A stretch of 64,000 nucleotides of DNA. Source: Vaginimicrobium propionicum. Its GTDB lineage: Bacteria; Actinomycetota; Actinomycetes; Propionibacteriales; Propionibacteriaceae. Both the position numbers and the translations under genes were made by a program. The first letter of the stretch is position 1. Each line of letters starts with the position of its first letter. The stretch lies in assembly GCF_900155645.1 (NCBI RefSeq), contig NZ_LT706985.1:806001-870000 (forward strand), written 5' to 3'. The notes under the pieces were generated by a model. That model worked only from the letters and a program-made list of their open reading frames with translations, did not search any database and was not told where the DNA came from. Positions 711-63,574 of this stretch are shown piece after piece.

Positions 711-3506
711 ATGGGAGCAGATTTTAGTGCAAAAATTAGTCGCTTCCGGGAAATCCTGGATGACGATTCTTGTCTAGACGACACGACTTTGACCAGAGCC
801 GTCTATTCAACAGATGCTTCCATTTACCGCGTAGTTCCCGGAATAGTGGCAAGACCACGTAGCCGAGCAGAACTCATTAACGTAGTCCGGGCAGCCCTTA
901 AAGCCAAACTTCCGATAACTGGACGCGGCGCCGGGACCTCGTGCGCTGGAAATGCTGTGGGGAATGGCTTAGTTATTGATATGTCTAGGCACCTGAACCA
1001 AATTCACGAGATTGATGAAATCTCTGGCACCGCAGTCATTGATCCTGGTGTAGTGCAATCTCAACTACAGATAGCGGCCAAACCCTTCGGGTTACGGTTT
1101 GGACCAGATCCATCTACCTCAAATCGATGCACCATAGGTGGAATGATCGGCAATAATGCGTGCGGTCCGCGTGCTATGGGTTACGGGCGCACTAGCGACA
1201 ATATTGTTGAGCTAGAAGTAATAACCGGCAATGGCGAATTGGTTACGCTGACCAACAGCGGAATAAATGGCGAGATAGGCAAGAAACTCAATGCTTTGGT
1301 TAACGCGAATTTGGCGCTGATCAGAACCCAATTCGCTAACTTTGGCCGCCAAATCTCCGGGTATTCGCTAGAACACTTATTGCCGGAAAAAGGCTTTGAC
1401 GTAGCTAATTTCTTCGCTGGCACTGAAGGCACTCTAGGTATTGTCACTCAGGCAAAGGTTCGTCTAGTCGCAGATAAACCGGTAAAGATAACAGTAGCTC
1501 TCGGTTACTCAGCGATGGCTTTGGGCGCTGACGATATGCCGATTTTGCGTAAATTCCATCCCAGTGCTTGTGAAGGAATGGATAGTAGACTCTCCAATTT
1601 AGTTGCTGAACGCATCGGCGCTCACGCAGTGCCGAAATTGCCTCACGGTGAAGCTTGGATTTTCATAGAACTGGTTGGCGAAGATAGAACTGAACTCATC
1701 GAACGGGCCAACCGTTTAGTGGCAGCCTCCAACTGCCAAGATGGCTGGGTTGTTGATGATGAGGAAGCTGCAAAAAAATTGTGGGCGATTCGCTCAGATG
1801 CTGCAGGTCTTGCCGGGGTGGCCTTAGAAAAACAGGCTTACCCAGGGTGGGAGGATTCCGCCGTCCCACCTGACAGGTTAGGAGCCTATCTACGTGATTT
1901 CGAGGATTTACTAGAACAGCATAATCTTCATGGCTTGCCATATGGCCATTTCGGGGACGGATGTTTGCACTGCCGAATTGATTTCCCGCTGACCGAAACC
2001 GACGGACCGAAACGTTTTCGAGAATTTATCTTGGCCGCCGGTGATTTGGTCGCGAAATATGGTGGTTCGATGAGTGGCGAGCATGGTGACGGACGTGCCC
2101 GCAGCGAGCTACTACCGAAAATGTATTCTGCTGAAGCTATCCAGCTATTTGGCCAAGTTAAGCAGCTTTTCGACCCGAACAATTTACTTAACCCTGGGGT
2201 TCTGGTAGACCCGTTGCCGCTAGATCAAGATATTCGCTATCACCAACCACCACTTCGGATTAGGCGGCCAGATTTTGCTGCTGCCGTGCACCGTTGCACT
2301 GGGGTCGGAAAATGCCTTAGCGACACGTCAACGTCCGGCAACCTGATGTGCCCGAGTTTTCAAGCCACCCATGACCAACGAGATTCGACTAGAGGACGCG
2401 CTCGTGTTCTTCAAGAGATGATTAATGGACGGCTAATCACAGGGGGTTGGCGAGCAAAAGAAGTTAAAGAGGCTTTAGAGTATTGCTTGGCCTGCAAAGG
2501 GTGCCGTCGTGACTGCCCGACAGGCGTTGACATGGCATGGTTCAAATCTAATGTTTTAGATGAGGCCTATCATTCACGAATCCGCCCAATAAATCACTAT
2601 TCATTAGGGTGGCTACCACGCTGGTCTCGACTGGTCACAACGCTAAGAATCGGGTGGTTAGCGAATTTCATCTTACAAACCCCCGGTCTAAAGCACCTTG
2701 TCAGAGCGATCGCTGGGGTTGATCAACGCCGCGATCTGCCACGTTTTAGGCCAGGTAAACCAGCTAAACAGTTAACACACCCCAAACTAAAAAACGGGCG
2801 AAAGATTGCGGTTTGGGTAGATTCTTTCTCTGATTCTTTCGAAGGGAACCAGCTCGCCGCATTGCTGCTTGTGTTGATAGACGCCGGATACGATCCGCAA
2901 GTCATTCAGCCCAATGCTTGTTGCGGATTGACGTGGATAACAACCGGCCAACTTGACGGCGCCCGTCGTCACCTAAAAAATGCTTTGACCATTCTTGAAC
3001 CTATCGCGGCTGAAATGCCAATTGTTGGGATGGAACCAAGTTGTTTGGCGGTGTGGCGTTCAGATGCAGCCGAGCTGCTGCCCAATGATAATCGCGTGGA
3101 AAAGGTGGCTCAACAGATTCATACCTTGGCCGAGATTTTGGTAGATACCGATGGCTGGCAAGCACCCGACCTGTCAGGAACCAAAGTGATCGCCCAGCCG
3201 CACTGTCACCAGTCATCGGTATTAGGTTGGGAAGCGGACGCTAAAGTGCTCGAAGCCACCGGCGCCAAGGTAATCAAACTGAATGGTTGCTGTGGACTAG
3301 CTGGCAACTTCGGGGTCGAACGTGGCCACTACGAAATTTCAGTTAAAGTAGCGCAAAACGAATTATTGCCAGCTATTGATGCATGCGGCAGTCAAGCAAT
3401 CGTTCTTTCAGACGGTTTCAGTTGCCGCAAACAAGTGGGAGATCTTAGCGACAACTTGGCCATGACTTTGGCGCAATTGTTAGTCAGCAACCGGCACCTA
3501 AGTTGA
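711..3506 (+). CDS. FAD-linked oxidase / Fe-S dehydrogenase (D-lactate or D-2-hydroxyglutarate dehydrogenase type, YdiJ-like)
   Basis: 931 aa with the full order of the fused D-2-hydroxyacid dehydrogenase family. An FAD-binding type 4 domain (about 40-200) is followed by an FAD-oxidase C-terminal domain (about 215-505), with GHFGDGCLHCRID near 411 and SGEHGDGRARSELLP near 454. Next are two ferredoxin-type cysteine clusters (CTGVGKC near 528, CLACKGCRRDCP near 592) and a C-terminal pair of CCG motifs (near 736 and 859). Such enzymes oxidise D-lactate or D-2-hydroxyglutarate and pass electrons to the membrane quinone pool; the exact substrate cannot be read from the sequence. The length is usual for the fused form. 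It ends 8 nt before the convergent dcp gene, and no terminator is visible between them. Confidence 0.9.
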   Translation: MGADFSAKISRFREILDDDSCLDDTTLTRAVYSTDASIYRVVPGIVARPRSRAELINVVRAALKAKLPITGRGAGTSCAGNAVGNGLVIDMSRHLNQIHEIDEISGTAVIDPGVVQSQLQIAAKPFGLRFGPDPSTSNRCTIGGMIGNNACGPRAMGYGRTSDNIVELEVITGNGELVTLTNSGINGEIGKKLNALVNANLALIRTQFANFGRQISGYSLEHLLPEKGFDVANFFAGTEGTLGIVTQAKVRLVADKPVKITVALGYSAMALGADDMPILRKFHPSACEGMDSRLSNLVAERIGAHAVPKLPHGEAWIFIELVGEDRTELIERANRLVAASNCQDGWVVDDEEAAKKLWAIRSDAAGLAGVALEKQAYPGWEDSAVPPDRLGAYLRDFEDLLEQHNLHGLPYGHFGDGCLHCRIDFPLTETDGPKRFREFILAAGDLVAKYGGSMSGEHGDGRARSELLPKMYSAEAIQLFGQVKQLFDPNNLLNPGVLVDPLPLDQDIRYHQPPLRIRRPDFAAAVHRCTGVGKCLSDTSTSGNLMCPSFQATHDQRDSTRGRARVLQEMINGRLITGGWRAKEVKEALEYCLACKGCRRDCPTGVDMAWFKSNVLDEAYHSRIRPINHYSLGWLPRWSRLVTTLRIGWLANFILQTPGLKHLVRAIAGVDQRRDLPRFRPGKPAKQLTHPKLKNGRKIAVWVDSFSDSFEGNQLAALLLVLIDAGYDPQVIQPNACCGLTWITTGQLDGARRHLKNALTILEPIAAEMPIVGMEPSCLAVWRSDAAELLPNDNRVEKVAQQIHTLAEILVDTDGWQAPDLSGTKVIAQPHCHQSSVLGWEADAKVLEATGAKVIKLNGCCGLAGNFGVERGHYEISVKVAQNELLPAIDACGSQAIVLSDGFSCRKQVGDLSDNLAMTLAQLLVSNRHLS

Positions 3507-56029: not shown

Positions 56030-56064
56030 CTCAACACCTCACCCCGGCGATAGCCAGAAAGTGA

Positions 56065-56438
56065 GGACGAGTCGGTCTATAAGCCGGGTTCTGTAATCGG
56101 TGAACATCCATCTGCGATCATCGTTGCCGATGACCTTCCCCGTCGACTTACGCCGCCGGCGTGCAACCTACCCAGCAACATGGCGGGTCACCCAAATTGC
56201 CGCAGGTGCTTGACGCACCTTTCTTGGTCTTGCTCCAGGTGGGGCTTGCCGTGCCAACTTCGTCACCGAAGTTGCGGTGGTCTCTTACACCACCGTTTCA
56301 CCCTTACCCATTTCTGGGCGGTTTACTTTCTGTTGCGCTTTCCCTCGAGTCACCTCGGGTGGGCGTTACCCACCACCTTTGCCCTGCGGAGCCCGGACTT
56401 TCCTCAGCTTTCGCCGCGATCACCCGACCGGCTCGTCC
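56065..56438 (-). ncRNA. rnpB: RNase P RNA, bacterial type A
   Basis: About 374 nt on the minus strand. The 5' end GGACGAGCCGGTC pairs with the 3' GACCGACTCGTCC (P1, some mismatch in the inner part). The universally conserved core is present: GAGGAAAGTCCGGGCTCC near the 5' end and ACAGAACCCGGCTTATAG near the 3' end, which form P4. The RNA is the catalytic component that cuts tRNA 5' leaders. Ends are placed by P1 pairing and may be off by a few bases. Confidence 0.96.
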
Positions 56439-56452: not shown

Positions 56453-56502
56453 GCGGTTTTAACAAGATGCTCTAAGCCATCACAATGCGTACACTCATGG
56501 GC

Positions 56503-57627
56503 ATGGTTGCTCACTACGTGTTGCAGATCGAGATTGATTCACTAACACAATGGGACGATCGCGCCCAGAACACGACCAGCGCCCACGGCTGGATAATCCA
56601 AGACGTTGATTTAACTGAACGCAGCGATGACCTACACCGGCTCGATGTATCAGGCGCATTATTTCTGGGCTGTCAACTACCAGATGATATTGAAAGCGAC
56701 CTAAAAGAACGCGGCGCAATAGTATTCCCAAAATTGCCGGGATTGCCATTCAACCCGTATAGAGCCAATCTTTATAAACCAACCGAACTTTATGATGGTG
56801 TTGTTGAAGGACGCAGCTACGCTGATTCAACGGACGCACTCGTATATGGCTGGCTACGCACTTTGCCACATTTGCTGCCGCTGCGCGCCTCGCTAGCGAT
56901 GACTCTACACGACCACGCCATCTCCGATGCCTTAGATGAAGCCTGTCAAAGTTTTGATCCTAAAAACACTTTCGGAATCATGGGTGGCCACGCAGTAGAG
57001 CGTAATTCCGACGCATATATCGGCTCAGCGAGATTGGCATCCATGCTGGCCAGCAACAATAATCTCGTCCTGACTGGTGGTGGTCCGGGAGCCATGGAAG
57101 CAGCCAACTTGGGAGCGTTTTTAGCTAACCGGCCAGCCGCACTACGCTCTGCTCTTGATCATTTGGGTCTAGCAAAAGATTATGTGGGTCAGGAAACTTA
57201 TTGGGCGGCCTTGGCGCTGGAGATTCGTCAAACACTCAACCCATCCGGAACCTCGATCGGGGTACCAACCTGGTATTACGGGCATGAACCAGCAAATGTT
57301 TTCGGTACCGGAATCGCCAAATATTTTTCGAATGCTTTGCGCGAAGACGCCCTCATTACACATTGCAAAGGCGGAATCGTTTATTTATCTGGAGCTGCTG
57401 GCACCACCGAGGAAATGTTCCAGACGGTAACCAAAAATTACTATGCTGCCAGCGAAGAATTGATCAGTCCAATGGTATTGGTGGACAAAGAATATTGGAC
57501 AAGACAACTACCGGCTTGGCAATTGCTGTCTTCCCTAGCTAAAGGCAAACCAATGGAAAATAAGATCTTCCTGGTTGATGAAGTAGACGAAGCGGCAGAA
57601 CTTCTACTCAGCATGGAATCGCGGTAG
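56503..57627 (+). CDS. LOG-family-like Rossmann nucleotide-binding protein
   Basis: 374 aa. The lysine-decarboxylase/LOG fold is indicated by FGIMGGHAVERNSDAY, LVLTGGGPGAMEAANLGAF near 193 and YLSGAAGTTEEMFQTV near 296, a variant of the PGGxGTxxE motif. LOG enzymes release cytokinin-like bases from nucleoside monophosphates; longer relatives act on other nucleotides. The N-terminal about 130 residues are of unrecognised type. The start is set at ATG 56503, 7 nt after TACACT (56490-56495); ATG 56485 is the alternative. The stop codon lies inside the following riboswitch region. Confidence 0.7.
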   Translation: MVAHYVLQIEIDSLTQWDDRAQNTTSAHGWIIQDVDLTERSDDLHRLDVSGALFLGCQLPDDIESDLKERGAIVFPKLPGLPFNPYRANLYKPTELYDGVVEGRSYADSTDALVYGWLRTLPHLLPLRASLAMTLHDHAISDALDEACQSFDPKNTFGIMGGHAVERNSDAYIGSARLASMLASNNNLVLTGGGPGAMEAANLGAFLANRPAALRSALDHLGLAKDYVGQETYWAALALEIRQTLNPSGTSIGVPTWYYGHEPANVFGTGIAKYFSNALREDALITHCKGGIVYLSGAAGTTEEMFQTVTKNYYAASEELISPMVLVDKEYWTRQLPAWQLLSSLAKGKPMENKIFLVDEVDEAAELLLSMESR

Positions 57628-57724
57628 GCTCGAGACCACGATCAGCGAAGTCGGTGTGATTCCGACGCTGTCCCGCAACGGTTATAGCCCGGTCGCCTGG
57701 TCACTGAGGCTAAACCGCGAAGGA
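57620..57724 (+). promoter_or_regulatory. Cobalamin (B12) riboswitch
   Basis: The conserved core is read on the plus strand: GCGAAGTCGGTGTGATTCC, GACGCTGTCCCGCAACGG and then TCACTGAGG. This matches the B12-element consensus (GGTGnnATTCCnnCGCTGnCCCGCAAC). The 5' part overlaps the stop codon of the LOG-like gene. The 3' part ends in GAAGGA, which lies 7 nt before the ATG at 57732, so ligand binding could mask the ribosome site. The first plus-strand cobalamin gene, cobD, begins about 560 nt further on. Confidence 0.82.
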
Positions 57725-57731
57725 CGGAAAT

Positions 57732-58283
57732 ATGCTATTTGGGTTGCCAGTCGAAAGGCACAATCTGTGCGTGGGCGAAATGCACCCAATCAACCTCACG
57801 GTGGCCTCTACCACTAAGCAGAGTAAGCAAGACCCTAAGAGAATCAGCATGGCCAACAATGAGGGCGGGTGCCGGTCCAGCCGCCAATATCGGCATGAAA
57901 GTGCGCACTCTATTAGCCACGTCAGCCACCGATTCCCCGCCGCCCCAAGCCACTTCGGTGATGTGTTTACCTGGTGGGGTCGGCTCTTCAACAAGCTCGC
58001 TAGGCAATTTCCCTTCCAAAAAGCCCCAGTTTTGTTCTCTAAGCGCCGACACCAGATTGACCTCAAGGCCGATTTTTTCCGCAATAATCTCGGCAGTCTG
58101 CTTGGCTCGCACCTGGTCAGAAGACCAAATAACTTTAATACCGCAATCACGAAGCCCCCGCGCAGCTGTGGCAGCTTGGGCTCGGCCTCGGCTAGTCAGC
58201 TCAGGAGCCATAGCTTGTCCCAATATCCGTCCACCAAGATTTCCAGTGGATTGCCCGTGTCTAACCAGATACAACTGCATGAG
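57732..58283 (+). other. Open antisense frame joining the riboswitch to cobD
   Basis: An ATG at 57732 with GAAGGA 7 nt upstream opens 184 sense codons that run without a stop into cobD in the same frame; the combined frame is 498 aa. The region is exactly codon-aligned and antisense to the histidine-phosphatase gene at 57735-58280. The encoded stretch is rich in Ser, Arg, His, Asn and Gln and resembles no family. It may be a translated leader, an N-terminal extension of CobD, or chance. Confidence 0.4.
57735..58280 (-). CDS. Histidine phosphatase family protein (alpha-ribazole phosphatase-like)
   Basis: 181 aa. The phosphohistidine motif LVRHGQSTGN is at the N-terminus, ALREQNWGFLEGK follows, and the second histidine is in LIVGHADSLRVLL. 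In a cobalamin cluster the likely role is removal of the 5'-phosphate from alpha-ribazole phosphate or adenosylcobalamin phosphate (CobC of enterobacteria), but general phosphoglycerate-mutase-like phosphatases look the same. A TAACCT -10 box lies 6 nt before the ATG, inside cobD. It is the only gene of this cluster on the minus strand, and none of its 19 Leu or 9 Ser codons is TTA, CTA or TCA. Confidence 0.85.
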   Translation of the reverse strand: MQLYLVRHGQSTGNLGGRILGQAMAPELTSRGRAQAATAARGLRDCGIKVIWSSDQVRAKQTAEIIAEKIGLEVNLVSALREQNWGFLEGKLPSELVEEPTPPGKHITEVAWGGGESVADVANRVRTFMPILAAGPAPALIVGHADSLRVLLTLLSGRGHREVDWVHFAHAQIVPFDWQPK

Positions 58284-59228
58284 ATGAGGTTAGCGCGCGC
58301 GGCAGGTTTATTGGCTGGACTGGGGGTTGATGCAGCAATTGCTGACCCACCGAATAAGGCTCATCCAACCGCTTGGTTTGGACACTGGGCAAGCTGGCTA
58401 GAAAAACATCTTTACCGAGATTCTGTGCTTGCAGGGCTCGGATATTACTTAGCGGCGTTAACGCCAGCAGTAGCTATTGGGCTAACTCTGGATGTATTAA
58501 GCGCCAAACGTCCAAGATTACGTTTTACCGCTACTGCGTTGGCCACCTGGGTGGCACTGGGAGCTAAATCGCTAGCCAACGAGGGGGAAACGATGGCCAC
58601 CAAATTAGATTGGGGGGATCTAGCTGGCGCCAGAGCTGGGCTATCAAATCTATGCGGACGAAAACCTGACGGTTTAGCTGAGCATGAACTAGCTAGAGCC
58701 ACGGTGGAATCGTTGGCCGAAAATACCTCAGATTCTGCGATAGCTTCACTTTTTTGGGGATCTTTTGGCATTACTCCAATGCTTATCCACCGCGCAACAA
58801 ATACCTTGGACGCGATGGTTGGAAACCACAGCTTACGTTTCGAGAAATTCGGGAAAGTGTCAGCCAGAGCAGACGATGTTCTTGGGTTAATTCCAGCCAG
58901 AGCCACAGCGTTGCTGGCTATCTTGACAGCTCCGGGGGTTGGCGGGTCTATTAGCCACACATCGCGGGTAGTCTTTCGAGACCACTTAAAACACCCAAGT
59001 CCTAACGGTGGCTGGTGTGAATCTGCCTGGGCAGGAGCCTTGGGCGTACAGTTAGGCGGACGCAACGTCTATGAATCTGGAGTCGAATATCGAGGCTTGT
59101 TGAATGCCGGAGCTTCACGTCCGGCCGGGCGTGCGTGTCGTCAAGCGGCACGATTAGTAAAAATAGTCTCGTGGACGGCTGGCGGACTATGCGCGGCAGC
59201 GTTGATTGGATGGCGTCGCCGTGGCTAA
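58284..59228 (+). CDS. cobD: Adenosylcobinamide-phosphate synthase CobD/CbiB
   Basis: 314 aa membrane protein that joins aminopropanol (or its phosphate) to adenosylcobyric acid. The motif KAHPTAWFGHWASWLEKHLY is at the N-terminus, with ATVESLAENTSDSAIASLFW and a C-terminal hydrophobic segment. The ATG at 58284 gives the family N-terminus, but it has no Shine-Dalgarno and no TANNNT box at 6-7 nt, unlike its neighbours. The reading frame is open upstream to 57732. It starts 4 nt from the divergent phosphatase start and overlaps cobQ by 8 nt. Confidence 0.93.
   Translation: MRLARAAGLLAGLGVDAAIADPPNKAHPTAWFGHWASWLEKHLYRDSVLAGLGYYLAALTPAVAIGLTLDVLSAKRPRLRFTATALATWVALGAKSLANEGETMATKLDWGDLAGARAGLSNLCGRKPDGLAEHELARATVESLAENTSDSAIASLFWGSFGITPMLIHRATNTLDAMVGNHSLRFEKFGKVSARADDVLGLIPARATALLAILTAPGVGGSISHTSRVVFRDHLKHPSPNGGWCESAWAGALGVQLGGRNVYESGVEYRGLLNAGASRPAGRACRQAARLVKIVSWTAGGLCAAALIGWRRRG
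58287..58292 (-). promoter_or_regulatory. -10 box of the histidine-phosphatase gene
   Basis: TAACCT on the minus strand is followed by CATCTC and the ATG at 58280, the same layout as at LCP and DUF3499. It lies within the first codons of cobD. Confidence 0.5.
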
Positions 59229-60657
59229 CGGGATTCTTATTGCTGGAACATCGTCGGATGCTGGAAAATCCGCCGTTGTTACTGGGCTGTGTCGAGCCTT
59301 AACGAACCGAGGATTATCGGTTGCCCCGTTTAAGGCTCAGAACATGTCGAATAATTCTATGGTGTGCCCGGATGGTGCTGAGATTGGGCGGGCGCAGTAT
59401 TTACAGTGTCAAGCCGCACGAATAACCCCATCGTCCCTAGTCAATCCGGTGTTATTAAAACCCGGCAGTGACCGTACCTCGCACATCATCCTTAACGGCA
59501 AACCTCACGGAAAATTAGTGGCTGGCCAATACGCTACTGGACGTCAAGAATTAGCCAAGGCCGCTTTCGCAGCTTTTGAGGAATTATCTACCCGATATGA
59601 TTTCATTATTGCGGAGGGTGCAGGCTCACCAGCAGAGATTAATCTACGTTCCGGAGATTATGTAAACATTGGTTTGGCTAGGCAATTTAATCTTCCAGTG
59701 GTGATTGTTGGCGATATCGATCGTGGCGGGGTGTTGGCAGCAATCTACGGCACTTGGGCACTATTAGCCGAAGATGACCGCAAGCAGTTAGCCGGTTACA
59801 TCATCAATAAATTCCGTGGTGACCCGCAAGTGTTACAACCCGGCTTAGACGAAATTAGCTTACGCACCGGACTGACCAATTTCGGGGTAATAAATTGGAT
59901 TTCCGGCGTTTGGACAGACGGTGAGGATGCCCTTGAAGTAGCGCGTTGGCCCCAACAAGATCAAAGCCAAGGACTGCGGGTGACTGTAGTCCGATTCCCC
60001 CGAATTTCTAATTCCACTGACGTGGATGCCTTGGCGGCGGAGCCTGGAATTACGGTACAAGTCAGCCAATCACCTCTAGACGTCAAGAACGCTGATCTAG
60101 TGGTGCTACCAGGAACTAGAGCTACCACCTCAGATTTAGCTTGGATGCGCAACAACGGCATAGCCGAAGCTGTTATTGCTCGCCACAGACAGCGCCAGCC
60201 GATATTAGGAATATGCGGCGGCTACGAGATGTTAGCCGAAACTATTGCTGACACTGTCGAAGGTAATGCCGGCAATGTTGACGGTTTAGGAATATTGCCC
60301 GTTACGGTGACTTTCTCGAAAGCAAAAACTACTAGACAATCCACCTATAGCTGGCAGGGAAAGACAGTTTCTGGCTACGAGATTCACCACGGCATATTAA
60401 CTCCTAGAACCTGTTGCGAACCGTTCTTAGATGGCCTGAGAGTGGGAAACACTTTCGCTACCATGCTTCACGGAAGCCTTGAAAATGATGATTTCAGACG
60501 TTCTTTATTGACTGAGGTAGCTCAGCTGACAAGAAATGCTTGGCGCCCAGATTCATCTGCCCCTAGCTATGGCCAGCTTCGCGAACAGATGATTGAGGCT
60601 TTGGCCTTAGCTATCGAAGAAAATGTTGATCTAAATCGGCTCTTGGAGTTGATGTGA
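59221..60657 (+). CDS. cobQ: Cobyric acid synthase
   Basis: 478 aa. It amidates four carboxyls of adenosylcobyrinic acid a,c-diamide. An N-terminal P-loop-like dethiobiotin-synthetase domain (LIAGTSSDAGKSAVVTGLC, FKAQNMSNNSMV) is followed by a glutamine amidotransferase domain with nucleophile about C332 in ILGICGGYEMLA and the histidine region YEIHHGILTPR. The GTG at 59221 was chosen over a TTG at 59206; both lie within the end of cobD. The stop overlaps cobO by 4 nt (GTGA). Confidence 0.96.
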   Translation: MANGILIAGTSSDAGKSAVVTGLCRALTNRGLSVAPFKAQNMSNNSMVCPDGAEIGRAQYLQCQAARITPSSLVNPVLLKPGSDRTSHIILNGKPHGKLVAGQYATGRQELAKAAFAAFEELSTRYDFIIAEGAGSPAEINLRSGDYVNIGLARQFNLPVVIVGDIDRGGVLAAIYGTWALLAEDDRKQLAGYIINKFRGDPQVLQPGLDEISLRTGLTNFGVINWISGVWTDGEDALEVARWPQQDQSQGLRVTVVRFPRISNSTDVDALAAEPGITVQVSQSPLDVKNADLVVLPGTRATTSDLAWMRNNGIAEAVIARHRQRQPILGICGGYEMLAETIADTVEGNAGNVDGLGILPVTVTFSKAKTTRQSTYSWQGKTVSGYEIHHGILTPRTCCEPFLDGLRVGNTFATMLHGSLENDDFRRSLLTEVAQLTRNAWRPDSSAPSYGQLREQMIEALALAIEENVDLNRLLELM

Positions 60658-61220
60658 GCACCAAGACTGACCGGTTGAAACCGCGTCTTATCGTCTATAC
60701 CGGCGAGGGAAAAGGCAAGACCACTGCCGCTTTTGGCATGGGGCTGCGCGCGTGGGCGCAAGGCTGGCGGATCGGGATTTTTCAATTCATCAAGTCAACG
60801 AAATGGCGGGTTGGGGAACGAGCCGCTTTCGACGAATTAAATTTGGCACACACCAGCAGCAAAGTGGGTGGATCGGTTGACTGGTTTACTTTAGGTGAGG
60901 GCTTCACTTGGCTAAATCACGGTTCAAACGATAGAGAACTGGCTAAGGCTGGCTGGCAACAAGTCAAGCGCGCCTTAGAAAAGCAGAGCTACGATTTTTA
61001 TCTTCTAGACGAGTTCAACCATGTTCTTCACCGTGGCTGGGTGGATTTAACGGAAGTTATTGAAACATTGAACGCACGACCGGGACATCAGCACGTGGTT
61101 ATTACTGGCCGAAACGCGCCTGCCGAATTGATTGCTGCCGCCGACCTGGTGACTTACATGAAAAACGTGAAACATCCTTTCGATAAGGGTGAACGTGGGC
61201 AGGCAGGGATTGAATGGTAG
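60654..61220 (+). CDS. cobO: Cob(I)yrinic acid a,c-diamide adenosyltransferase
   Basis: 188 aa CobA/CobO-type enzyme that transfers the adenosyl group of ATP to Co(I). The P-loop is YTGEGKGKTTAAFG at about 15-28, with FQFIKSTKWRVGE and YDFYLLDEFNHVL (Walker B) after it. The GTG start overlaps the cobQ stop by 4 nt and the end overlaps the next gene by 7 nt. Confidence 0.96.
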   Translation: MSTKTDRLKPRLIVYTGEGKGKTTAAFGMGLRAWAQGWRIGIFQFIKSTKWRVGERAAFDELNLAHTSSKVGGSVDWFTLGEGFTWLNHGSNDRELAKAGWQQVKRALEKQSYDFYLLDEFNHVLHRGWVDLTEVIETLNARPGHQHVVITGRNAPAELIAAADLVTYMKNVKHPFDKGERGQAGIEW

Positions 61221-63574
61221 CTCGAATAGTAATTGGCGCCCCTGCCTCCGGTCAGGGTAAAACAACCATTGCCATCGGTCTAATGGCTGCCTTTCGGATG
61301 GCTGGGCTAAAAGTAGCGCCGTTCAAAGTTGGCCCAGACTACATCGACCCTGGTTATCACACGCTGGCCGCCGGGCGTGCGGGACGAAATCTAGACCCCC
61401 ACCTATGCACTCCCGAACTAATCGGATCATTATTTAACCATGGCGCGAGAACTCCTGACGACGCTGATATTGGCGTTATAGAGGGGGTAATGGGACTATT
61501 CGATGGCAAAATCGGGACTGCCGGTTTCGGCTCGACAGCTCATGTTGCCGAACTACTATCAGCGCCCGTTATTTTAGTTGCTGACAGTTCACACAGTTCA
61601 GCCACTACCGCCGCCATTGTTCACGGGTTAGCTGACTACTCATCGCAAATAACTGTCGCTGGCGTGATCGCTAACCGAGTGTCTAGCAAGCGGGTAAGTG
61701 ATGAATTGCGTCGAGCTTTAGCCAGCACGGGCATCCCGCTGCTAGGTACAATTCCGGCTAGTGCCGCAATAGCCGCACCATCTAGACACCTTGGGCTAAT
61801 TCCTGCTGCCGAACGCGCGGGGGCTCAACAAATGGTGGATGCGGCCGGTCAGATAGTAGCCGACAATGTTGACCTTGAAAAGATTCTGCAGATTGGTCGT
61901 CAAGCTGGACGAATGACTTCCGCCATTTGGCGTCCGCAAGACCTAGTCGCTCCCATAGCTGGGGCCCCCACGATAGCTGTGGCCACAGGCAGCGCATTCA
62001 CGTTCAGATATCCAGAAACCGTTGAATTATTGCAGGCTTGTGGGGCGAAAGTTGCCGAATTTGATCCGCTAACAGACCCGCAACTACCAGTCGGCACCCA
62101 AGGACTATATTTGGGCGGTGGCTTCCCAGAGGTGTACGCAAGTCAGCTAGCCGAAAATACCAGTCTACGCACTCAAATTGGGCAGGTGGTGCGGGATGGT
62201 CTGCCTACAGTAGCCGAATGCGCTGGGCTGCTTTATCTGTGCCGCACTATTGACGGAATAGCTATGGCCAACGCTTTAGATGTTGACGCCCAGATGACGC
62301 CAAAACTAAAACTTGGCTATCGGGAGAATGCACCAGAATCTAATTCATTGATTTACCGCATTGGGGAGCCAGTTAGATACCACGAGTTTCATCGAACGCG
62401 GATAGTGGGATCCGACCACTTCTATTCCCCGACTTTGCACGCTAGCTATCAACATGTTCATTGGGCTGCCTATCCACAGTTTGCTACCCGACTAGTTGAG
62501 GCTGCCGCCGAGTTTTCCCCGTCGCGTATCAACCCAATCCATCGTGAGTCGATAGTGCTTGGTGACCTACGTCACCATGGAGATCAAGACACTGGTGACG
62601 GTTTGGTAAACCTGGCAGTAAATGTTCTATCACCGAAACCACCGAAGCTATTGGCTGATGCGCTGCGCGATGATGTTGAAAATTGGTCCGCCTATCCACG
62701 TTTTGACGAGGCTAGAGAGGCTATTGCTAAACGTCATCACATAGCTAAAGAAATGATTTTGCCAACAGCTGGGGCGACCGAAGCATTTAACCTTGTCGCG
62801 CGCACTTTGTACCCGTCAAAACCGGTCGTTATTCACCCACAATTCTCTGAGCCAGAAAGAGCATTAGCAGCCTTAGGAATCCGGGTTTATCGAGCTATCT
62901 CTAAGCCACCCGATTTCGACTTGCCGCCAATAGCTGATTGTTTTGATTTGGTTTGCGTTGGAAACCCGACGAATCCGACTGGAAAACTTTATTCAGCTAA
63001 CCAATTACGCTCACTTCGCAGCTCGAACAGAATCGTTTTAGTTGATGAAGCATTCATGAGTGCCCTGCCAGAAGAGACGGAATCTTTAATCGGCTCAGAT
63101 ATGGCCGGTATCTTGGTTATTCGTTCATTGACGAAAACTTGGTCAATAGCCGGGGTACGTGCCGGTTATCTCGTTGGCGACGCCCAGCTAATTTCTCGTT
63201 GCCAGGAAAACCAATCACCGTGGAGTGTAAGCTCGCCAGCCGCCAAGGTGATGAGCCTGACCGCCAGTACCCAGGCTATTGCTTTTGAGGCGGCTCAATG
63301 CAGTGAAATGGCAGCTAATAGAGCCATCTTAGTAACGGCTTTAAGCCAAGCTGGCTTTGCCCCAATCACCAACGCAGCTACCCCATTCGTTACTTTTGAA
63401 GCCTCCAAGTTGGGGCCGACACCGGCAGCTTCGCTACGCAAAAACGGTTGGGCAGTACGCGACTGCGCATCCTTTCCTGGGTTGGGGCCAAATTGGTTAC
63501 GAGTTGCAGTACGAGAACCTGAAATAAGCCATAATTTCGTTCAAACCTTAGTCAAGCTGACTGAAGAAAGGTAA
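61214..63574 (+). CDS. Fused cobyrinic acid a,c-diamide synthase / threonine-phosphate decarboxylase-like aminotransferase
   Basis: 786 aa in one frame. Residues 1 to about 468 are CobB/CbiA: GAPASGQGKTTIAIGLMAAF, FKVGPDYIDPGYH, EGVMGLFDGK, and a glutamine amidotransferase domain with nucleophile about C336 in TVAECAGLLYL; it amidates the a and c side chains of cobyrinate. Residues from about 470 are a class I/II PLP aminotransferase: ILPTAGATEAFNLVARTLYP, VGNPTNPTGKLY, VDEAFMSALPEE and the PLP lysine about 640 in RSLTKTWSIAGVRAGYL. This part matches the CobC (CobD of Salmonella) group that makes aminopropanol phosphate from threonine phosphate. Confidence 0.9.
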   Translation: MVARIVIGAPASGQGKTTIAIGLMAAFRMAGLKVAPFKVGPDYIDPGYHTLAAGRAGRNLDPHLCTPELIGSLFNHGARTPDDADIGVIEGVMGLFDGKIGTAGFGSTAHVAELLSAPVILVADSSHSSATTAAIVHGLADYSSQITVAGVIANRVSSKRVSDELRRALASTGIPLLGTIPASAAIAAPSRHLGLIPAAERAGAQQMVDAAGQIVADNVDLEKILQIGRQAGRMTSAIWRPQDLVAPIAGAPTIAVATGSAFTFRYPETVELLQACGAKVAEFDPLTDPQLPVGTQGLYLGGGFPEVYASQLAENTSLRTQIGQVVRDGLPTVAECAGLLYLCRTIDGIAMANALDVDAQMTPKLKLGYRENAPESNSLIYRIGEPVRYHEFHRTRIVGSDHFYSPTLHASYQHVHWAAYPQFATRLVEAAAEFSPSRINPIHRESIVLGDLRHHGDQDTGDGLVNLAVNVLSPKPPKLLADALRDDVENWSAYPRFDEAREAIAKRHHIAKEMILPTAGATEAFNLVARTLYPSKPVVIHPQFSEPERALAALGIRVYRAISKPPDFDLPPIADCFDLVCVGNPTNPTGKLYSANQLRSLRSSNRIVLVDEAFMSALPEETESLIGSDMAGILVIRSLTKTWSIAGVRAGYLVGDAQLISRCQENQSPWSVSSPAAKVMSLTASTQAIAFEAAQCSEMAANRAILVTALSQAGFAPITNAATPFVTFEASKLGPTPAASLRKNGWAVRDCASFPGLGPNWLRVAVREPEISHNFVQTLVKLTEER

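Follow-up and report, generated by a model that had tools for sequence, protein, structure and literature searches.

A riboswitch-led open frame antisense to a phosphatase gene as a probable ribosome relay to cobD in Propionibacteriaceae

The DNA stretch of 64,000 nucleotides analyzed here (referred to as the window) comprises bases 806001-870000 of the single-contig genome of Vaginimicrobium propionicum, which has 2,010,679 bases in total; the window has 51% G+C. Within it, a putative cobalamin (vitamin B12) riboswitch is followed by an open frame that runs antisense through an entire histidine phosphatase gene and continues in frame into the B12 biosynthesis gene cobD. Based on the sequence comparisons described below, we consider it probable that this translated antisense leader serves as a ribosome relay, passing riboswitch control to cobD across a noncontiguous operon. 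With somewhat less confidence, we also expect that selection has kept the antisense strand free of stops because ribosomes started at the riboswitch must cross the phosphatase to reach the B12 operon. In the course of evolution, the track would have been kept, whereas its start would have changed between a riboswitch site, an ordinary ribosome site, and a transporter gene that hands over to the relay.

In the proposed mechanism, a B12-repressed translational riboswitch would govern the start of translation at ATG 57732. Under B12 shortage, ribosomes would begin at this codon and read the strand opposite the phosphatase in a stop-free register, which would be maintained by the codon choice of the phosphatase gene. 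They would then run directly into cobD, resulting in a 498-residue fusion here, or stop and re-initiate at the cobD start in other species, and would probably continue into cobQ, cobO, and cobB via overlapping stop/start pairs.

Results

Stop depletion in the window

The original prediction, made from the letters of this DNA and a list of its open reading frames (ORFs), had described the sequence GAAGGA seven bases before ATG 57732, the phosphatase gene on the minus strand, 184 open codons across it and a fused frame of 498 codons starting at this ATG. All of these coordinates were confirmed (Table 1). The ribosome duplex energy at ATG 57732 is -8.7, compared with -1.5 at ATG 58284, which agrees with the statement that cobD has no ribosome site of its own at this position. 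Among the 19 leucine and 9 serine codons of the phosphatase, TTA, CTA, and TCA, i.e., the codons that read as stops on the other strand in this register, do not occur at all, and TTA or CTA makes up 5 of the first 10 leucine codons of cobD, both as originally claimed.

As a reference, a sample of 150 ORFs of at least 150 codons (169 kb) was taken from the window and seven 20-kb stretches of the genome. The ORFs were chosen by length and codon-position signature, some of them may be spurious, and the fused frame is part of the sample, but the phosphatase is not. In these ORFs, TTA and CTA together account for 35% of leucine codons and TCA for 17% of serine codons. The codon-aligned antisense register is fully open in none of the 150, and the absence of the three codons, which had been looked for in unrelated genes, was thus not encountered a second time. 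Under this codon usage, 8.2 TTA, CTA, or TCA codons would be expected in the phosphatase, compared with none observed (P(open) 5.0e-5), and the register was open in 0 of 4000 simulated synonymous recodings of the gene. A histidine phosphatase paralogue of the same genome contains 10 of these codons. In the third plus frame over the phosphatase, the number of stops exceeds the expectation (16 vs. 8.6).

Conservation of the start and the register

For the comparison, 198 genomes of the family were searched, with one genome per species and the genus of the window represented by the window genome alone. The phosphatase (E ≤ 1e-25) was found in 64 and CobD (E ≤ 1e-60) in 83 of them, and 65 phosphatase copies were examined. 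Fifteen copies lie head to head with cobD at a gap of at most 170 bases; the divergent pair of G040, with its 461-base gap, was left out. Promoter-like TANNNT sites were scanned separately by script. In six of the 15 loci, all of genus g13, such a site is located 6 or 7 bases before the cobD ATG, and these loci were used as controls. The relay set was defined by the head-to-head position within 170 bases of cobD and the lack of TANNNT at cobD, with the antisense frame disregarded; by the pattern scan, the site is missing at cobD in all nine loci of this set, the window included. These nine loci (the window, G000, together with G185, G139-G142, G019, G113, and G041) span five genera, namely g1, g34, g32 (four loci), g20 (two loci), and g28, and Propionibacterium freudenreichii, probably G142, is among them.

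To locate the start of the frame, every start codon between positions -180 and +6 relative to the phosphatase stop was ranked by the energy of its ribosome site. In 9/9 relay loci, the strongest start lies in frame 0, the register of the relay, with a frame running through the phosphatase, and a frame of that kind was found in only 3 of the 56 other copies (G076, G055, and G053). A ribosome-site motif of at least 5 bases at a spacing of 4-10 bases precedes the relay start in eight of the nine loci, the exception being G041. In P. freudenreichii, the start is a GTG located 33 bases ahead of the phosphatase stop. Up to cobD, frame 0 is stop-free in all relay loci vs. 21 of the 56 others (Fisher P 4.5e-4, with G185 counted up to the cobD start), so that stops in relatives, which could have spoken against a translated frame, are absent before cobD from the eight other loci of this layout. 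The six g13 controls contain 1-5 stops each in frame 0. A CobD tree of 42 genomes (without G113) places G185 as the sister of the window, and in this locus of 57% G+C no antisense stop is found before cobD vs. 3.4 expected (P 0.03). As the phosphatase copies are related, these P values are to be read as guides only. Overall, the comparison supports the original view that a riboswitch-led frame may be translated across the phosphatase, and it also supports ribosome delivery to cobD by this frame.

The relay would be started by a riboswitch in seven of the nine loci. In G185, GGAGG and an ATG in register form the start, and no riboswitch was detected in 8 kb at E ≤ 0.05. A NicO gene takes this place in G041; it is preceded by an AdoCbl-type match (45 bits, score threshold 50), and its stop overlaps the relay ATG (ATGA). 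On the CobD tree, the distribution of relay plus riboswitch takes 3 changes, at least 2 of which are forced by well supported branches.

The order at the G041 locus (L204, 2376-5243) is AdoCbl-type match, NicO nickel/cobalt transporter, ATGA, relay antisense to the phosphatase, and cobD, by which transporter and biosynthesis would be chained by the relay. The orientation of the phosphatase gene varies across the family, being either head to head with cobD or before cobD in the same direction. Since both orientations occur within genus g28 (G041 and G042), the gene may have flipped in place.

Chance had already been named in the original prediction as an alternative, i.e., such registers are open by chance in G+C-rich genes, with cobD being made from its own unseen promoter or an internal start. 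For G+C-rich relatives taken singly, this alternative is fair: openness alone is expected by chance in the five loci tested (P 0.30-0.49), and the 21 open copies outside the relay set point in the same direction. The register alone is a weak indicator as well, as the strongest start falls in frame 0 in 22 of the 54 other copies with a start and in 4/6 g13 controls, where the frames are only 15-44 codons long; the register was therefore counted only together with running through the gene. Several further observations weigh against the relay. When adjusted for the phosphatase's own lower third-position A, the number of stops expected in the window falls to 5.3 (P 2.6e-3), and a second open plus frame (simulation P 0.010) is present there as well. 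G041 is without a good relay ribosome site and has a possible cobD start, an ATG inside the phosphatase, with an energy of -7.0. G141 holds a rival ATG in another frame, and G108 combines a riboswitch-like element (23.7 bits) and an antisense phosphatase with no good in-register start. Moreover, the loci are not independent, as three of the five genera fall into one clade of the CobD tree. However, chance does not account for the window genome with its low P(open) and its sample without a single fully open ORF, nor for the set, in which the strongest start is in register and runs through the gene in every locus and the end points lie at cobD in 9/9. In addition, cobD of the window has neither a promoter-like nor a ribosome site. 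We therefore regard chance as an improbable explanation.

End of the proposed relay at cobD

In five of the nine loci, the relay is fused in frame to cobD, with total lengths of 498 (G000), 548 (G142), 532 (G141), 533 (G041), and at least 279 codons (G113, where the contig ends). In the remaining four, it ends at the cobD start, with an ATGA overlap in G139 and G140, GTGA in G019, and a relay TGA in G185 that is directly followed by TTG, with an ATG six bases after. At the ATGA and GTGA overlaps, a G-rich site precedes cobD and the energies of the cobD start are -10.2, -12.9, and -8.4, compared with -3.2 in G185. A weak separate cobD start (0 to -3.2) is found in 4/5 fused loci, i.e., in the window and in G142 (0.0), G141 (-2.5), and G113 (-3.2), where the start tested in G142 and G141 was picked by us. 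The endings differ even within a genus: the two g20 species show GTGA vs. fusion, and the four g32 species vary as well. Such an interchange of fusion and overlap would be expected if the passage of ribosomes, and not the peptide, is selected. The N-terminally extended CobD that had been suggested for the window thus fits five loci; in the other four, the frame stops at cobD, so that ribosome delivery and not extension is common to the loci. Downstream of the relay, successive overlapping stops and starts link cobD, cobQ, cobO, and cobB in the window.

Alternatively, translation could only keep Rho off a long leader, with cobD starting on its own. When translation at a riboswitch is blocked, Rho sites may become exposed, as stated in the available text of PMC11260477, and protection of the leader from Rho is plausible. 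As the sole purpose of the frame, such protection is unlikely: neither in the window nor in most of the fused loci does cobD have a ribosome site, and the stop/start overlaps at the other loci point to coupling.

The antisense frame might also encode a functional N-terminal domain or an antisense protein. The in-frame fusion in 5/9 loci would fit this, and so would the fourfold sites of the phosphatase, which are the first positions of relay codons. Their identity was compared in six genome pairs that share genomes, five of them with both cobD and cobQ as comparators. For G000/G185 (55 sites), the phosphatase sites are somewhat more conserved (0.35 vs. 0.23 in cobD and 0.27 in cobQ). This is the only one of the five pairs in which they exceed both comparators, whereas in G141/G142 they lie above cobD and not above cobQ, and in G139/G140, G139/G142, and G140/G141 below both. 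For G019/G113, with cobD as the sole comparator, the values are 0.35 vs. 0.33. Furthermore, the frame is separate from cobD in four loci, the stretch preceding the phosphatase stop ranges in length from 1 to 49 codons across loci, and searches of the relay peptide against Pfam and NCBIfam returned no match. An AlphaFold2 model (12 rows) gave a pLDDT below 50 for residues 1-76 and 92-171, with most values of the CobD part above 75, by which the extension is predicted to be disordered; no match at E ≤ 0.001 was obtained in a structure search of the PDB with the fused model. A functional peptide is hence very unlikely, and the relay peptide itself is probably unimportant.

The candidate riboswitch

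The best match of the element in the window is to RF01689 (AdoCbl-II; E 3.4e-6) and stays just under the gathering score of 36.5 bits; the RF00174 match is also below its gathering score of 31.5 (Table 1). Accordingly, a riboswitch scan of the window at gathering thresholds returned none. An element at the same place reaches or exceeds the RF00174 score in G139, G140, G141, G142, and G019, and that of G113 scores 26.8 bits, below it. With both the window and G113 under the curated scores, the riboswitch call in these two loci is based on the shared B12 core and the place.

The motif GUCCCGC (GTCCCGC in the DNA), in a loop segment that we take to be L5, is identical in all seven riboswitch relay loci. 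It could pair with the ribosome-site segment GCG-AA-GGAC, and this pairing would make a translational OFF switch. By eye, the complementarity is complete in six of the seven loci (including one G-U in G141), and G113 is one position short. The alignment of riboswitch DNA, made from 6/7 elements without that of G113, had too many gaps at its 5' end for covariation and was not used, which leaves the capture of the ribosome site by L5 a suggestion from complementarity.

A TANNNT pattern, albeit a loose one, is found 5' of the B12 core in 7/7 riboswitch relay loci scanned, at a distance of 67-73 bases from the core in six of them and of 48 in the window. In a scan of 57200-58500 for consensus promoters and terminators, which does not cover the TANNNT type, none was detected, fewer than in shuffled sequences. 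Two other riboswitch matches of the window genome were considered and rejected as relays: L002 is followed by a frame of 245 codons that has an ordinary ribosome site, presumably a corrin methyltransferase by its look, and L004 by a 354-codon frame that looks like a BtuC-type permease, which we assume it to be. For the cbiB element of P. freudenreichii, B12 response and ligand binding have been reported (Zhu 2015, as told in the available part of PMC8123684).

The phosphatase

To judge from its PF00300 match, the gene on the minus strand is a true histidine phosphatase. Its best NCBIfam match, TIGR03162 (ribazole_cobC), scores 86.1 bits, below the cut-off of 162.9, and a role in B12 synthesis is suggested by one feature, the linkage to cobD. 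TANNNT occurs six bases before the phosphatase start in 8/8 relay loci scanned (G041 not among them). This leaderless-type arrangement indicates that the phosphatase is probably transcribed alone, head-on to the riboswitch transcript.

Hence, the riboswitch transcript could mainly silence the phosphatase, in the manner of the antisense-acting aspocR riboswitch in Listeria. It would be complementary to the phosphatase mRNA over the full length of the latter, the leaderless-type promoter of the phosphatase lies at the cobD start, and antisense-acting riboswitches have been described (available parts of PMC9943018 and PMC7154746). Silencing, however, needs no open frame, no in-register ribosome site, and no end at cobD. 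It would also shut off a CobC-like enzyme of the same pathway when B12 is short, which, if the enzyme is of this type, makes little sense. Silencing as the main function is therefore unlikely; it can coexist with the relay.

Features of the locus

The coordinates of all features are summarized in Table 1. The aminotransferase part of the last gene is presumably of the L-threonine-phosphate decarboxylase type, which is also named CobC, so that this name may have two meanings at the locus.

Table 1. Features of the riboswitch, phosphatase, and cobD region, with positions counted from the first base of the window.
Feature	Positions	Strand	Remarks
-10-like TAGGCT	57625-57630	+	Immediately 5' of the aptamer; shares bases with the stop codon of the preceding gene (56485-57627)
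Putative cobalamin riboswitch, with aptamer (57633-57703) plus expression platform	57633-57731	+	RF01689 34.6 bits; RF00174 25.1 bits
GTCCCGC, loop L5 segment	57670-57676	+	Read from the sequence; complementary to GCG..GGAC around the ribosome site
GAAGGA, putative ribosome site of the relay frame	57719-57724	+	Strongest energy among the starts ranked between -180 and +6 of the phosphatase stop
Proposed relay frame, 184 codons aligned codon by codon with the phosphatase on the opposite strand and continuing in frame into cobD	57732-58283	+	Start ATG 57732
Histidine phosphatase, branch 1, CobC-like	57735-58280	-	PF00300 131.9 bits
-10-like TAACCT of a leaderless-type promoter, separated from the phosphatase ATG by six bases	58287-58292	-	
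cobD/cbiB, adenosylcobinamide-phosphate synthase domain	58284-59228	+	PF03186 264 bits; TIGR00380 167.5 bits (above the cut-off of 165.9)
cobQ	59221-60657	+	PF07685, NF001989 over cut-off; GTG start as read by us; 8-base overlap with cobD
cobO	60654-61220	+	PF02572; GTGA overlap with cobQ
cobB domains fused to an aminotransferase domain	61214-63574	+	PF01656, PF07685, PF00155; 7-base overlap with cobO
Second open plus frame	57739-58287	+	Ends with ATGA at 58284; TTG 57739, the sole start close to the ribosome site, has poor spacing

The second plus frame spans the whole phosphatase, and its ATGA ending at ATG 58284 has the geometry of G139 and G140. A second layout across the same phosphatase was observed at L070 (G108, 1317-3091), where the next gene is of the CobT family, not cobD, and has its own ribosome site by eye. 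An RNase P RNA (RF00010, 268.8 bits) is located at 56064-56435 on the minus strand, just before the gene upstream of the riboswitch.

Discussion

The closest parallel is the ppe2 riboswitch of Mycobacterium tuberculosis, which, according to the available text of PMC11260477, acts by way of the uPPE2 frame, which is translated, and of an AUGA overlap. Removal of the uPPE2 ribosome site or start severely reduced the output of a PPE2 reporter (PMC11260477). The two systems (there, B12 riboswitch, upstream open reading frame (uORF), ppe2, and cobQ(U)) share a leader frame under a B12 riboswitch, whose translation is needed downstream in M. tuberculosis, and the AUGA overlap before a gene without a ribosome site (PMC11260477). 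In the window, a leader frame with a ribosome site likewise stands directly behind the riboswitch and is fused to cobD, which is without a site. In contrast to the short uPPE2 leader, the leader here has a length of 170-253 codons or forms a fusion with cobD, and it spans a conserved enzyme gene in full on the opposite strand; the word 'antisense' is absent from the available text of that paper (PMC11260477).

In Staphylococcus aureus, the mRNA of the noncontiguous operon menE-menC-MW1733-ytkD-MW1731 extends across an opposite-strand gene, as described in the available part of PMC7154746. A similar arrangement is suggested here by gene order and promoter-like sites. Unlike the internal untranslated region of the S. 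aureus case (PMC7154746), the region is kept open in our loci, in register with a ribosome site. The aspocR riboswitch (Listeria) and that of ubiG (Clostridium), as far as covered by the available parts of PMC7154746 and PMC9943018, resemble our element in being located at the 3' side of a gene, across which they drive antisense RNA, as our element would. There, the antisense RNA is the regulator, whereas here it would also be the mRNA of cobD.

The riboswitch of P. freudenreichii cbiB/cobD has already been published and is probably the same element as at G142; its passages in the available parts of PMC5644110, PMC8123684, and PMC11494915 give its position as upstream of cbiB/cobD, with no mention of the antisense phosphatase or the open frame in between. 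The terms 'Propionibacteri' and 'cobD' are absent from the available main text of PMC9943018, which is separate from its supplementary tables of 292 cases. A translated antisense relay was not found in titles and abstract openings of the open-licence papers that our searches listed. While the riboswitch of P. freudenreichii, noncontiguous operons, and antisense riboswitches are all known, a riboswitch-uORF relay through a noncontiguous operon would be a new variant.

If true, a translational riboswitch, normally limited to the adjoining frame, would reach an operon behind an inverted gene, and the same 550 bases would encode an enzyme and, on the opposite strand, serve as a regulated track for ribosomes. 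The silent codon choices of the phosphatase would then be constrained by the needs of its other strand. This makes 'antisense proteins' and noncontiguous operons testable, as a single silent change of a phosphatase codon should cut or spare cobD in P. freudenreichii, a safe organism and the industrial B12 producer. Perhaps five of the nine CobD proteins carry an extension of at least 180 residues that could be missed by annotation, although this is a guess. It is also a warning to annotators and engineers that expression of the B12 operon could be altered if the phosphatase is recoded or deleted or the riboswitch is moved.

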